A DNA stretch of 64,000 nt from Pelobacter propionicus DSM 2379. Its GTDB lineage: Bacteria; Desulfobacterota; Desulfuromonadia; Geobacterales; Pseudopelobacteraceae. Each line of letters begins with the position of its first letter. The stretch's first letter is position 1. Where the stretch lies: assembly GCF_000015045.1 (NCBI RefSeq), contig NC_008609.1:496001-560000 (forward strand). Reading direction: 5' to 3'. Below, piece by piece: positions 9,789-15,080 of this stretch. The translations under genes were made by a program, and so were the position numbers. The notes under the pieces are model-generated. The model was not told the origin of the DNA, made no database searches, and saw only the letters and a list, made by a program, of their open reading frames with translations.

Positions 9789-9804
9789 TGGCACGCTCCA
9801 TGCT
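9789..9804 (+). promoter_or_regulatory. Sigma-54 (-24/-12) promoter of the PII/Amt cluster
   Basis: TGGCACGCTCCATGCT matches the sigma-54 consensus TGGCACG-N4-TTGCW at every fixed position except one (A for the first T of TTGC). The GG and GC dinucleotides are intact at the right spacing. It is on the plus strand about 135 bases before the beta-barrel gene that opens the nitrogen cluster, so NtrC-type activation under nitrogen limitation is expected. Confidence 0.8.
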
Positions 9805-9938
9805 GACAGGTAGTCACAGACACAGGTTGTACGGCCCCTGATGTCTCCACATTCTACTCTACAGAACGTGCAGCGATGAGACCAACGAAGCTTTCATCCC
9901 ATCACCGTTCAAAATCAACGATGAAAAGGAGAGGAAAG

Positions 9939-10694
9939 ATGAAATTGGGAAGAGTTGTGGCAACGGCATGCGCGACAGTGGCACTGGCGAGTGGCGTGGC
10001 AATGGCGACACCTGCGACGCAGGTCTGGATACCGTCGCCTGACGTGAAGGGGTTTGGCGACGTTCACATCGATGTTGACTATTACGGCCGCTTTTCCAAC
10101 AAGAACAATGCGGGCGCCAACATGTACGACATCGGCGTGGGCGTGGGTATCTCCCCCTTCGAGAACCTGAAACTGGAGATCGGCGCAGATTTTCTCAAGC
10201 AGAGCATCCACGACTATGACAGCCACCCCTTCTATTTCAACGCCAAGCTGGGTACGCCCGAAGATGCCTTCGGTATTAAGGGGTTGCCGTCATTTGCTGT
10301 CGGCATCTACAACATGGGCACCTACAACGATACCTCGAAGGGGGTCTACACCCGTCAGAACATAGCCTATGGCCTGGCCGGCAAGACTCTGCCGGTCATC
10401 GGCCGTATATCCGCCGGTGGCTACTACGGCTCGGAGAGCGCACTGGGCAAGGGGGCCAACAGCGGCGCACTGGTTTCCTGGGATCGTACCATGGGCGAAA
10501 TCTCCGACAAGCTCTGGCTGGCAGCTGATTACATGAGCGGCAACAACGCCAATGGCGCGGCAAGCATCGGCGCGGCCTGGGCATTTTCCAAGAACGTTTC
10601 CGTATTGGTGGGCGCCGTGTTCTTCAACCCCTTCCAGGAAGAGAAGCCTGGCGGGAAGCCTGCGTTCACCACCCAGTTGGATCTTTCGTTCTAG
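9939..10694 (+). CDS. Exported outer-membrane beta-barrel-like protein of the nitrogen cluster
   Basis: The 251-residue protein has a signal peptide with likely cleavage after AMA (about residue 25). The mature chain is rich in Gly and aromatic residues with alternating strands (IDVDYYGRFSN, MYDIGVGVGISPFENLKLEIGADF, FAVGIYNMGTY, VSVLVGAVFF). It ends LDLSF with a terminal Phe, the usual signal of barrels inserted by BAM. I do not recognise a named family. It is first in the sigma-54 cluster, 89 bases before PII. A channel helping ammonium or small nitrogen compounds across the outer membrane is an inference from context only. AAAGGAGAGG precedes the ATG at 9939. Confidence 0.6.
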   Translation: MKLGRVVATACATVALASGVAMATPATQVWIPSPDVKGFGDVHIDVDYYGRFSNKNNAGANMYDIGVGVGISPFENLKLEIGADFLKQSIHDYDSHPFYFNAKLGTPEDAFGIKGLPSFAVGIYNMGTYNDTSKGVYTRQNIAYGLAGKTLPVIGRISAGGYYGSESALGKGANSGALVSWDRTMGEISDKLWLAADYMSGNNANGAASIGAAWAFSKNVSVLVGAVFFNPFQEEKPGGKPAFTTQLDLSF

Positions 10695-10762: not shown

Positions 10763-11122
<360 letters not shown>

Positions 11123-11167: not shown

Positions 11168-12619
11168 ATGAAACTCAAATTATTCCTAAGTATAAGCATG
11201 CTCATGCTTATACTGGTTGCCGGCAGGATGCCGGTTGTCGCACACGCCGAAGAAAACAAGGATACTGCTTTCGCCGTGACTGCCCCGGCAGCGGCAAGCG
11301 TGGCCGTCGCCGAGACCGCTCCGGCTGCTGCCACTGAAGCCGCGCCTGCCCCGAAGCCGGTGACCGCCGAAGATGTCCAGACCAATCTGAACTTTGTCTG
11401 GACACTGATTGCGGCCTTTCTGGTCTTTATCATGCAGGCCGGTTTCGCGCTGGTGGAAATCGGCTTTACCCGGGCCAAGAACGCCTGCAACATCCTGATG
11501 AAGAACATGATGGACTTCTCCGCCGGAGCGATCGCCTACTGGGCGGTAGGATTCGGGCTCATGTTCGGTGTCAGCAACGGCTTCTTCGGAACCACGCACT
11601 TCTTCTTCAACGGCGTTGCCGAGGCTGATCAGCCGTGGAACTTCGCCTTCTGGATGTTCCAGGTTGTCTTTGCCGCCACCACCGCCACGATTATCTCCGG
11701 AGCTGTGGCTGAACGCACCAAGTTCAGCGCCTACATCGTCTACTCCTTCGTCGTATCGGCCGTGATCTACCCCATCTTCGGCTCCTGGGCCTGGGGCAAT
11801 CTCTACAAGGGGACCGGCTGGCTGGCAAGCATGGGCTTCATCGATTTCGCCGGTTCGACGGTCGTTCACTCCATGGGGGGCTGGCTCTCCCTTGCCGGTG
11901 CCATCATCGTCGGTCCGCGCATCGGCAAGTACGACAAAAATGGCAACCTGAAGCCGATTCCCGGACACAATATACCCTTGGCTGGCCTGGGTGTCTTCCT
12001 GCTCTGGTTCGGCTGGTACGGCTTCAACCCCGGTTCCACTACCACCGGCACTACCGGCATCGCCATCATCGCGGTGACGACGACCCTGGCTGCTGCAGCT
12101 GGCGCCAACTCGGCCATGTTCTTTACCTGGCTCAAGTTCGGTAAACCGGATGTGGGCATGACCCTGAACGGGGCCCTGGCTGGCTTGGTGGGTGTCACCG
12201 CCGGCTGCGCCAACGTCTCTCCCCTCTCCGCAGTGATCATCGGAATGGTGGCTGGCGTGCTGGTGGTTCTGTCGGTCATGTTCTTCGACAGAATCAAGAT
12301 CGATGACCCGGTCGGCGCGGTGTCGGTGCATGGCGTTTGTGGCGCCTGGGGGACCTTGGCGGCCGGACTCTTCAACAGCGCCGGTTTCAGCCTGAAACAG
12401 GTCGGTGTCCAGCTGGTCGGAATGGGCGCCTGCTTCGTCTGGGCTTTTGGATGCGGCCTGATCCTCTTCAAGCTGATCGACATGGTCATCGGCATGCGGG
12501 TCTCCAGGGAAGAGGAAATGGCCGGACTGGATCTGTGCGAACACGGCGCATCGGCTTACCCCGACTTCCAGACGGTTCACTTCGGCGCAATGTTCAACCC
12601 GGACGAAGGAAAGAAATAA
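11168..12619 (+). CDS. amt: Ammonium transporter, cyanobacterial-type Amt subclass
   Basis: The 483-residue protein has an N-terminal signal-like helix, an Ala/Pro-rich spacer (to about residue 70), then the 11-helix Amt core. Function-defining residues are present: Phe and SGAVAERTKFSAY of the vestibule, DFAGSTVVHSMGGW with the first pore His, and VSVHGVCGAWGTLAAG with the second. The first core helix reads FALVEIGFTRAKNACNILMKNMMDF, and the VVHSMGGW...GPRIGKY segment is of the kind seen in the cyanobacterial-like Amt subclass, unlike the E. coli AmtB-type partner downstream. It is 45 bases after PII with a good GGGAGG site. It should carry ammonium across the inner membrane. Confidence 0.92.
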   Translation: MKLKLFLSISMLMLILVAGRMPVVAHAEENKDTAFAVTAPAAASVAVAETAPAAATEAAPAPKPVTAEDVQTNLNFVWTLIAAFLVFIMQAGFALVEIGFTRAKNACNILMKNMMDFSAGAIAYWAVGFGLMFGVSNGFFGTTHFFFNGVAEADQPWNFAFWMFQVVFAATTATIISGAVAERTKFSAYIVYSFVVSAVIYPIFGSWAWGNLYKGTGWLASMGFIDFAGSTVVHSMGGWLSLAGAIIVGPRIGKYDKNGNLKPIPGHNIPLAGLGVFLLWFGWYGFNPGSTTTGTTGIAIIAVTTTLAAAAGANSAMFFTWLKFGKPDVGMTLNGALAGLVGVTAGCANVSPLSAVIIGMVAGVLVVLSVMFFDRIKIDDPVGAVSVHGVCGAWGTLAAGLFNSAGFSLKQVGVQLVGMGACFVWAFGCGLILFKLIDMVIGMRVSREEEMAGLDLCEHGASAYPDFQTVHFGAMFNPDEGKK

Positions 12620-12713: not shown

Positions 12714-14237
12714 ATGAAAGCTCAAGGATGGCTTTCACACTACTGTTTCATTCCCCGGATGGAGCAGCTTGCCGTCGTACTGATCCTCGGCATTACGCTG
12801 TTTCTGTCTCCCTTTGTCGCATCGGCCCCGGCTGAAGAGACGTCGGCCACTGCTCCCGCGGCAACCTCCTCTGCCGCTCAAGGCGCGGCAGCCGCGAACT
12901 CTCCGTCCGCCGAAGCCGTGTCGGTCGTCGCTCCTGCCGAGCCCCCCGATGTCGCTCCGGTGCTCGACACCGGCGACACCGCCTGGATGCTTGTCTCCTC
13001 TGCCCTGGTGCTGCTGATGATCCCCGGCTTGGCGCTCTTCTACGGCGGCATGGTCCGCCAGAAGAACGTGCTCTCCACCATGATGCATTCCCTGGTGGCC
13101 ATGGGCATTGTCGGCGTGCAGTGGGCGGTGATCGGCTATTCCCTTGCCTTTGCTCCCGACATGGGGGGCATGGGGCTGGTCGGAGACTTCAGCAAGGCCA
13201 TGCTGGACGGCCTGGTTATCGTCAAGGACGCTGCCAGCGGCACGGTTGACTGGGCCCTGTTCCAGAATTACACCAAGGAGCCGGGCGCGATTCCCGAGCT
13301 GGTGTTTGCCATGTACCAGTGCATGTTCGCCATGATCACCGTGGCGCTGATTTCCGGCGCCATGGCGGAGCGGGTCAAGTTTTCGGCCTACTGCCTGTTC
13401 GTGCTGCTCTGGACCACCCTGGTGTACGATCCGCTGGCACACTGGGTCTGGATGACCGAAGGCTGGCTGTTCAAGAAGGGGGCGCTTGATTTCGCCGGTG
13501 GCACGGTTGTTCACCTCTCCTCCGGTATTTCGGCCTTGGTGTTTCTGAAGTTCCTGGGCAAACGCCACGGATTTCCCCATGAGCGCATGGCGCCCCACAA
13601 CCTGCCCCTGACACTCTTGGGCGTGGGTCTGCTCTGGTTCGGCTGGTTCGGATTCAACGCCGGTTCGGCCATCGTGGGCGTCAACAACTCCGACGCGGCC
13701 GGTGGCCTGGCAGGTCTGGCCTTCGCCACCACCACCATAGCGCCGGCAGCAGCCGGTCTCTCCTGGATGATCGCCGAGTGGATCCACTCAGGGCGCCCCA
13801 GCGCCCTCGGCTTCGGCTCCGGTGTCGTGGCCGGCCTGGTGGTCATCACGCCGGCAGCCGGGTTCGTGCAGCCGGGAGCCGCCCTGCTGATGGGGCTTAT
13901 GGCCGGTGTGGTCTGCTACGGCGGCGTGCTGATGAAGGCCAAGCTGAAGTACGACGACTCCCTGGACGCCTTCGGTGTTCACGGCGTGGGCGGTACCTTC
14001 GGCGCCATCCTGACCGGCGTGTTCGCCACGGTGGGCGCCACCGGCCTCCTGGCCGGCAACGCCCAGCAGCTGATGACCCAGCTGATCGCCATCCTGGCGG
14101 CAGGCGCCTATGCCGTCATCGTAACCCTGATCATATCCTTTGTTCTCGACAAGACCATTGGTCTGCGGGTGGAGAAGGAAGACGAGATCATGGGTCTGGA
14201 CCAGACACAGCATTCCGAGTCGGGCTACAACATGTAG
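12714..14237 (+). CDS. amtB: Ammonium transporter, E. coli AmtB-like subclass
   Basis: The 507-residue protein also has a signal-like helix and an Ala/Ser/Pro-rich spacer before the 11-helix core. The core starts DTAWMLVSSALVLLMIPG and carries ALFYGGMVRQKNVLS, the vestibule QCMFAMITVAL, DFAGGTVVHLSSG and FGVHGVGGTFGAILTG with both pore His. These match the classic AmtB subclass and differ from the preceding Amt. It is 94 bases after that gene, with GGAGAT before the ATG, and ends at the 14266-14301 terminator. Two non-identical Amts under one PII suggest division of labour in affinity or gating, which is inference. Confidence 0.93.
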   Translation: MKAQGWLSHYCFIPRMEQLAVVLILGITLFLSPFVASAPAEETSATAPAATSSAAQGAAAANSPSAEAVSVVAPAEPPDVAPVLDTGDTAWMLVSSALVLLMIPGLALFYGGMVRQKNVLSTMMHSLVAMGIVGVQWAVIGYSLAFAPDMGGMGLVGDFSKAMLDGLVIVKDAASGTVDWALFQNYTKEPGAIPELVFAMYQCMFAMITVALISGAMAERVKFSAYCLFVLLWTTLVYDPLAHWVWMTEGWLFKKGALDFAGGTVVHLSSGISALVFLKFLGKRHGFPHERMAPHNLPLTLLGVGLLWFGWFGFNAGSAIVGVNNSDAAGGLAGLAFATTTIAPAAAGLSWMIAEWIHSGRPSALGFGSGVVAGLVVITPAAGFVQPGAALLMGLMAGVVCYGGVLMKAKLKYDDSLDAFGVHGVGGTFGAILTGVFATVGATGLLAGNAQQLMTQLIAILAAGAYAVIVTLIISFVLDKTIGLRVEKEDEIMGLDQTQHSESGYNM

Positions 14238-14301: not shown

Positions 14302-14327
14302 GCATATAAACACACACCGGAGTGGAT

Positions 14328-15080
14328 ATGAAGAATCCGGCCGATACGTATGGCCAGGGGAGACTCGACGAAGAGCTCCTGAAGCAGCTGGTCCATAATG
14401 AAAAGATGGCCGAACTGGGCAGGATGTCCGCGGGGATCGTGCACGAACTGAATGCGCCGCTCTCGGTCATCGCCTCGGCGGCTCAGATGATCCTGCGCGA
14501 GACGGATGTGCCGGAGTTCGTGCGCGAGATGGTCGGACGCATCGGCGTCGAGGCTCAGCGTCTCTCCCATCTGGCCAGGGGAATGCTCAGTCTGAGCTGT
14601 CGAGACTCGACCCTCCAGGAGGTGGACATCAATCTCACCATCCGCTTTGTCCTTGATTTCATCTCCTACGAGGCGGCCCGGCGCGCAGTCCTGGTCGTGC
14701 CGAAACTGGATTTTCGTCTGCCGGTGATCCTGTTGGACGGCAACAAGCTCAAGCAGATCCTGCTCAATCTCGTCATGAATGCGTTGCAGGCCATGGAAGA
14801 TCAAGGGGGGGTGTTGCGCGTGGAGACCGGCTCTCCGTTGCCGGGCGAGGTCGACATCGTCATCAATGACAATGGTCCGGGGATTCCCGCCGAGTCCCTG
14901 GAAAAGATATTCCAGCCCGGTTTCACCACCAAGAAGGAAGGAGAGGGGACCGGCCTGGGGCTGTTCGTTACCAGGATGTTGGTGGAACAATTGGGGGGGC
15001 GCATTGAGGTGGACAGCCGCATTAGCGAAGGGACCACATTCAGGGTGACACTGTCAACGGGGGAGCGGAGCGAGGATTGA
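14328..15080 (+). CDS. Soluble NtrB-like sensor histidine kinase
   Basis: The protein is about 250 residues long and has no membrane segment and almost no sensor domain. It goes from a 25-residue lead straight to a HisKA box (AELGRMSAGIVHELNAPLSVI, phospho-His near residue 40). The HATPase_c core follows with N box (LLNLVMNALQAM), G1 (DNGPGIP), F box and G2 (GTGLGLFV). This minimal layout fits kinases that take their signal from a partner, as NtrB does from PII. No response regulator is adjacent. GGAG lies 5 bases before the ATG at 14328, preferred over a GTG at 14322. Linkage to the PII/Amt cluster suggests nitrogen sensing (inference). Confidence 0.8.
   Translation: MKNPADTYGQGRLDEELLKQLVHNEKMAELGRMSAGIVHELNAPLSVIASAAQMILRETDVPEFVREMVGRIGVEAQRLSHLARGMLSLSCRDSTLQEVDINLTIRFVLDFISYEAARRAVLVVPKLDFRLPVILLDGNKLKQILLNLVMNALQAMEDQGGVLRVETGSPLPGEVDIVINDNGPGIPAESLEKIFQPGFTTKKEGEGTGLGLFVTRMLVEQLGGRIEVDSRISEGTTFRVTLSTGERSED

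Follow-up and report, generated by a model that had tools for sequence, protein, structure and literature searches.

A predicted outer-membrane barrel of no named family heads a PII/Amt operon of Pelobacter propionicus and may admit ammonium under nitrogen limitation

We analysed a stretch of 64,000 nucleotides from Pelobacter propionicus DSM 2379 (contig NC_008609.1, positions 496,001 to 560,000), here called the window. Five of its genes lie on one strand in the order barrel, PII, Amt1, Amt2 and histidine kinase, with a peroxiredoxin gene upstream of the barrel (Table 1). A first-pass annotation of the window had placed an outer-membrane barrel first in a PII/Amt operon. This placement is correct, since PII, Amt1 and Amt2 follow the barrel on the same strand. 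The histidine kinase is a candidate for GnfK from its position only, because gnfK of G. sulfurreducens is given as GSU0941 (PMC7962754), two locus numbers past the PII gene GSU0939 (PMC2725144). If the kinase is GnfK, the sensor may be co-expressed with ammonium uptake. On the plus strand, the stretch from 9611 to the PII gene gave no sigma-70 sites or terminators, and their counts in the region were little above those of shuffles.

Table 1. Features of the barrel locus, in positions of the window
Feature	Positions	Strand	Remarks
Sigma-54 (RpoN) -24/-12 promoter-type site	9789-9804	+	TGGCACGCTCCATGCT (GG-N10-GC); between peroxiredoxin gene and barrel
Conserved structured leader RNA	9862-9947	+	covers ribosome-binding site, reaches start codon
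Barrel ORF	9939-10694	+	251 aa; signal peptide, 12 predicted transmembrane strands, C-terminal Phe
PII signal protein, GlnK/GlnB type	10784-11122	+	PF00543 E 6.6e-35
Ammonium transporter Amt1	11168-12619	+	PF00909 E 1.7e-125; TIGR00836
Ammonium transporter Amt2	12714-14237	+	PF00909 E 7e-124; TIGR00836
Histidine kinase, candidate GnfK	14322-15080	+	HisKA + HATPase_c

The barrel gene is real, which confirms the original observation. Its start at 9939 is preceded by a ribosome-binding site (AAAAGGAGAGGAAAG) that was graded strong; an alternative in-frame ATG at 9876 would lengthen the reading frame and falls within the conserved leader. The signal peptide and the C-terminal Phe that had been noted are both present: the former ends, by sequence, in AMA, and the protein ends in ...TQLDLSF. 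A conserved N-terminal segment reads PATQVWIPSPD in the P. propionicus copy, and the segment PSTQIWIPSTD is strongly conserved among the relatives. The first-pass annotation knew of no named family for this protein, and our searches agree: zero Pfam and NCBIfam profiles match at E<=1, and no PDB chain is matched by sequence, whether by the single query or by a 17-row profile. The barrel is a single copy in the P. propionicus genome (search at E<=1).

AlphaFold2, run on 17 rows for the P. propionicus protein, returned 12 strands plus the signal helix (mean pLDDT 74.6, pTM 0.70). A second run, in which the divergent relative L016 led the same rows, again gave 12 strands plus the signal helix (mean pLDDT 73.9, pTM 0.71). 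The confidence of both models is moderate. Thus, the barrel predicted from the sequence was recovered twice, and a non-barrel fold was not obtained. In VIA-align comparisons the first model matches KdgM with Z 17.3 (rmsd 2.5 A, 167 aligned), FapF with 17.2, VhGalP with 17.1, the COG4313 channel with 17.0 and NanC with 16.0; these rows are near-tied, and KdgM, NanC, FapF and COG4313 together span Z 16.0-17.3, an rmsd of 2.5-3.5 A and 167-212 aligned residues. For comparison, a barrel of 12 strands designed de novo reaches Z 13.8, and part of the fold similarity therefore reflects the common 12-strand arrangement. Outer-membrane phospholipase A is also among the fold rows (Z 12.2), and the top Foldseek rows include general porins with low TM-scores; the fold comparison covers the families on the VIA list.

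The more polar face of each strand was taken as the lumen side. Hydrophobic and polar faces alternate clearly in nine of the 12 strands and weakly in 118-126, 142-151 and 175-184. Among the predicted lumen residues, conservation in an alignment of 141 barrels is 100% (rounded) for E80, D84, K103 and R156, 99% for D197 and 96% for D182, which lies in a weak strand; two of these six charges are basic (K103, R156). For the 87 barrels linked to PII/Amt, P. propionicus included, the predicted lumen contains on average 7.7 acids vs 4.5 bases, which corresponds to a charge of -3.2, and the mean charge for the 48 unlinked barrels is -2.9. In the models this net acidic lumen hints at a preference for cations. 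As a clue to the cargo, lumen charge was set aside: the balance is mild, it was scored without a control family and the inner face is clear in nine of 12 strands only.

The sigma-54 site upstream of the barrel was recovered in a genome-wide scan (as G000:C3:505789), in which it is one of 51 sites, compared to 26 for the reversed-pattern control. It is a putative nitrogen-limitation promoter. A looser sigma-54 score was dropped, since at low cut-offs control hits were too frequent, and the counts below refer to a strict pattern. The leader RNA that covers the ribosome-binding site has an outer stem, GAACGUG/CACCGUUC, and an inner stem, GAUGRRA/UUUCAUC, with the hexaloop AANGRN, in which A1 is kept in at least 90% and G4 is invariant. 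This motif is present in 41 loci and absent in six. Thirty-nine of the 41, together with P. propionicus, form an alignment of 40 rows with 84% mean column identity, whose consensus fold has 15 pairs, two of them with compensatory change. The resulting model, named f1 after the family of P. propionicus, has one match only in the P. propionicus genome and later matched all six motif-less loci, five of them weakly. It is possible that UUUCAU of the inner stem pairs instead with AUGAAA adjoining AAGGAG, which would make the leader a translational switch. Rfam gave nothing at the leader at E<=1; the sole match of the scan is a chance one, elsewhere and far below the cut-off.

We then surveyed the barrel family, which is without a name in Pfam and NCBIfam, across genomes. 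Of 277 class genomes, 126 carry it at E<=1e-5, P. propionicus among them, as do 29 of 395 genomes drawn across the phylum; the class count speaks against a chance reading frame. Loci were retrieved from 110 of the 126 class genomes (120 loci) and from 20 of the 22 new phylum-level genomes (20 loci), 140 in all; P. propionicus is among the 16 class genomes outside this set, and the class loci omit second copies with a weaker match, fragments and a part of the single copies. A barrel was counted as linked when PII/Amt lies within 700 bases on the same strand. Linkage is found at 86 of the 140 loci (82 with the barrel upstream, four downstream) and hence is not lost in all relatives, the outcome that would have spoken against the role first proposed. 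Another 48 loci are unlinked (orphans), and two with a PII-like neighbour only and four at a contig edge were counted as neither. Per genome, 86 are linked, 41 unlinked and three at an edge. The linked loci show three gene orders, barrel-PII-Amt, barrel-Amt-PII and PII-Amt-barrel. A quick midpoint-rooted tree of 141 barrels has linked members on either side of its deepest split and shows at least 14 switches between linked and orphan states. Linkage has been lost in two large groups, and many of the orphans are members of genus g7, which belongs to f1, or of genus g21, which belongs to the related family f4.

The sigma-54 pattern (TGGCAY-N6-TGCW within 400 bases upstream of the barrel) is present at 70 of 81 barrel-first linked loci, a count that leaves out one linked locus with less than 150 bases upstream, vs 52 of 5152 control windows (1%). 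Half of the orphans (24/48) have it: 21 of 22 in f4, the only one in family f3, one of two outside the class and one of 23 in f1.

ANTAR-target RNAs are defined by two hairpins whose hexaloops have A1 and G4 (PMC8164766). Many leaders of f3 and f4, and some other-class leaders, have two such A1/G4 hairpins, the second of which overlaps an intrinsic terminator. Judged by sequence, this arrangement is the ANTAR antitermination layout. A strict string search for the dual hairpin plus a T-run found it in 16 of 22 f4 orphans and six of 14 linked f4 loci, vs 5 of 1390 shuffles, and in one of 42 linked f1 loci. Across 15 linked leaders the terminator pairs covary (95.2% of cells paired; score 0.212 vs a shuffled mean of 0.127, with 0 of 500 shuffles reaching it); the two antiterminator hairpins hardly vary and hence lie outside this test. 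A model built from the same 15 leaders matches in 17 of 22 f4 orphans, at a distance of 92-235 bases ahead of the barrel, and in the one f3 orphan, 45 bases ahead of it. At each of the four loci with the order PII-Amt-barrel it matches upstream of PII, and it matches in none of the 23 f1 orphans. Because the f4 orphans keep both the sigma-54 site (21/22) and the leader (17/22), these barrels appear from their upstream sequences to have moved off while retaining nitrogen-type control, so that regulation outlived linkage. The f1 orphans mostly kept neither; the f1 leader model matches in three of the 23 (E<=0.05; L084 strongly, L158 and L088 weakly).

The leader of P. propionicus itself has one hairpin of ANTAR-target type only. 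A dual hairpin, searched for with the ANTAR/terminator model, was not found in it. The genome encodes one ANTAR-domain protein (G000:C3:3819332), which has a receiver domain and whose likely counterpart we take to be GnfR of Geobacter, reportedly tied to antitermination. Elsewhere in P. propionicus the model matches weakly (E 9e-4) at L309 1501-1576 (G000:C3:3829731), ahead of nifH (PF00142 E 9e-130) and with a sigma-54 pattern site just upstream, and a second weak match lies at C3:3856901. Strong matches away from the barrel were seen at L185 484-567 and L188 10231-10308. The latter is just ahead of the Amt genes, and in this locus both the orphan barrel and the Amt operon carry such a leader.

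A second family of small barrels occupies the same place in some operons. Gcw_chp (PF09694; TIGR02001, TorF family putative porin) occurs in 71 of the 277 class genomes and together with the first barrel family in four, a contrast that is inflated by shared ancestry. We fetched 40 Gcw regions out of 95 matches listed, and 24 of these 40 have PII and/or Amt adjoining (19 with the barrel after Amt, four before PII and one between). In four loci (L242, L244, L245, L246) a sigma-54 site, an ANTAR/terminator leader, a Gcw barrel, PII and Amt follow each other in this order, and other genomes of their genera (g10, g12, g14) hold the first barrel family at that position. Between the Gcw-slot loci and those of the first family, identity is 77-92% for PII and mostly 83-96% for Amt. 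The flanking genes are also alike, for example 66% on the upstream side and 62 and 72% on the downstream side for L244 vs L181, 61 and 58% upstream for L246 vs L142, and 90% upstream and 81% downstream for L242 vs L189. The orphan Gcw barrel L266 likewise has a sigma-54 site and an ANTAR-type leader.

The P. propionicus barrel matches neither TIGR02001 nor PF09694, given that no Pfam or NCBIfam profile does so at E<=1, and 0 of 17 members of its family match PF09694 in Pfam. Homology of the two barrel families was tested with hhalign (141 vs 40 rows) and not found, with a probability of 12% over 28 columns compared to 1.6% over 17 columns for the reversed control. To the extent that hhalign detects kinship, the two families thus show no detectable homology, and any common origin may be very old. 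We read the four loci, which represent four genomes and three genera, as the apparent replacement of one outer-membrane barrel by another, in either direction, within one regulated slot. Such an exchange speaks for an outer-membrane channel as a functional component of these operons.

Some Gcw barrels occur in other settings. G114 has three copies, one of which adjoins PII/Amt. L249-L255 and L275 (g28 and others) look like a separate group, with no PII/Amt within the fetched stretch. L239 and L240 lie outside the Amt operon and are probably the P. carbinolicus copies that were reported beside ethanolamine/choline lyases, which suggests small porins for amines.

Our preferred explanation, to which we assign a probability of roughly 0.55, is that the barrel is a 12-stranded outer-membrane channel of the nitrogen-limitation regulon that raises the entry of ammonium, or of a small nitrogen solute, for Amt. 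We favour it because the 12-strand models resemble channels, and because of the linkage to PII/Amt, the sigma-54 sites, the leaders of the f4 orphans and the replacement in the slot; the weak ANTAR leader match ahead of nifH and the mildly acidic predicted lumen also speak for it. When fixed nitrogen is short, sigma-54 RNA polymerase would initiate behind 9789-9804, the structured leader would tune the output, and a single transcript would encode the barrel, PII, the two Amt proteins and the sensor kinase. The barrel would raise the permeability of the outer membrane to ammonium or to small solutes yielding ammonium, the high-affinity Amt in the inner membrane would thereby not be starved by the outer membrane, and PII would gate Amt in the usual way. 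This scheme presumes an active promoter, co-transcription, an open pore, passive transport and ammonium as the cargo. Membership of the nitrogen regulon is well supported in f3 and f4 and likely in P. propionicus. That the barrel is an ammonium channel is plausible; ammonium would be the likeliest cargo, with other small nitrogen compounds possible. The role proposed in the first-pass annotation, a dedicated outer-membrane route for ammonium or some other nitrogen source, is partly supported: its link to nitrogen gains from the sigma-54 site, the nitrogen-type leader, the f4 orphans that keep both and the second barrel in the slot, but linkage is lost in two large groups.

Several observations count against an ammonium channel of this regulon. 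Orphans make up 48 of the 140 loci, and 22 of the 23 in f1 have no sigma-54 site and 20 no f1 leader (E<=0.05). The surroundings of the main Amt gene were searched in 14 genomes that have orphan barrels (12 from g7 or g21), and none of the 14 has a barrel of either family at 1.5 kb or less from it (E<=0.01); in one of them, G147, the barrel is found about 5 kb upstream of the Amt genes. The leader of P. propionicus is not of the ANTAR/terminator type, two of the six conserved lumen charges are basic, and the models are of moderate confidence. Moreover, general porins should pass ammonium freely, so that the need for such a channel is not self-evident. Finally, the start listed for GSU0939 in G. 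sulfurreducens is RpoD, and the RpoN promoter predicted there was not seen by primer extension under the conditions used, although the authors suggest that it may work in nitrogen-fixing conditions (PMC2725144).

A channel of the same regulon could instead serve other nitrogen compounds, such as amines, urea, amino acids or small peptides, and share the operon with Amt only through a shared need. We consider this rather unlikely. The f4 orphan barrels, which retain their regulation without an adjoining Amt, would fit it, as would P. carbinolicus, in which ethanolamine/choline lyase genes are reported to adjoin two relatives of the Amt-linked Pcar_1023 (PMC3543383), copies that L239 and L240 resemble. 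The amine case, however, belongs to the Gcw family, and Amt/PII recurs as the neighbour of the first family in three gene orders. Were the barrel a general, non-selective porin for envelope remodelling in nitrogen stress, any small barrel would suffice; that another family can take the slot is as expected if a hole is enough, and general porins do appear in the top Foldseek rows, if with low TM-scores. Yet the strongly conserved lumen charges and the PSTQIWIPSTD segment argue for a specific role, and we regard such a porin as improbable. We give even less credence to readings without a channel, in which the barrel is closed and acts as an enzyme, adhesin or sensor, or the gene is a passenger. 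There are enzymes among 12-strand barrels, as the phospholipase in the fold list illustrates, but the top VIA-align rows are mostly channels, and the replacement of a passenger by another barrel behind the same leader would be unexpected.

For Gram-negative bacteria, high-affinity ammonium uptake is commonly described only as far as the inner-membrane Amt. If the proposed ammonium channel exists, a broader idea can tentatively be raised, which we rate as possible and short of probable: the Amt/PII system would span the whole envelope, with a dedicated, nitrogen-regulated ammonium pore as a standard part, its slot being filled by at least two unrelated barrel families that replace each other in place, downstream of one and the same sigma-54 promoter and antitermination leader. 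If the operon includes a dedicated pore, ammonium uptake at low concentration would be limited by the permeability of the outer membrane, and this would bear on diazotrophs and on metal reducers of nitrogen-poor sediments. The presence of two barrel families in one regulated slot makes the idea testable by deletion and by swap.

KdgM and NanC carry acidic sugars, whereas the predicted lumen of the barrel is net acidic. Their folds (PDB 4fqe, 2wjq) share the 12-strand arrangement of the model (Z 17.3 and 16.0); nevertheless, the barrel has no sequence match to KdgM-type porins (Pfam E<=1, PDB). The COG4313 channel (PDB 4rl8), which aligns over 212 residues beginning at residue 29 (Z 17.0, rmsd 3.5), is tied with KdgM and FapF, but is only 10% identical to the barrel, which matches no Pfam family. 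TorF/Gcw_chp has in common with the barrel family a small barrel-type protein, a signal peptide, a C-terminal Phe and an adjoining PII/Amt; it lies mostly after Amt (19/24), whereas the barrel family is mostly upstream (82/86). In many bacteria, ANTAR RNAs are described ahead of genes for PII and ammonium transporters, and these ANTAR-controlled operons resemble those behind the f3 and f4 leaders; the terms "outer membrane" and "porin" are absent from the paper's main text (PMC3369931). In Kuenenia stuttgartiensis the BBP2 porin KSMBR1_3177 is raised under ammonium limitation and was proposed to increase ammonium influx (PMC7438415). KSMBR1_3177 is a large BBP2 barrel, and the passage that describes it does not tie it to an Amt operon. 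Our literature searches, which covered few subscription papers and some sources in part, found no description of the barrel family in an Amt operon. The view that such an outer-membrane layer is rarely described in Amt systems has to yield to the Kuenenia porin (PMC7438415) and to the P. carbinolicus paralogue beside an ammonium transporter, which has been remarked on (PMC3543383); it holds in part only. Thus, an ammonium-influx porin as a kind is already in print, and what is new is the barrel family and the swappable regulated slot.

A few loci deserve separate mention. No neighbour gene common to all orphan barrels was seen in the 11 loci examined. In L123, L141 and L081 (g7) the adjoining gene is presumably threonine-aldolase-like; these three orphans have neither sigma-54 site nor leader, and their job may have changed. 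A small PII-like protein lies ahead of a barrel paralogue in L089, L116 and L012. The f1 leader model matches weakly in L089 and L116, and in L012 what we take to be a hemerythrin-like protein after a KdpC-like one also precedes the paralogue. Neither the barrel family nor the L241 Gcw protein was found in plasmid records at the limits used, and a search centred on another genome led to the same phylum again only. Finally, a barrel relative with 45% identity (L017 638-1390) lies directly behind the end of an Amt gene on a 3.4-kb contig labelled Bacteroidales, which reflects either a wider spread of the barrel family or a binning error.
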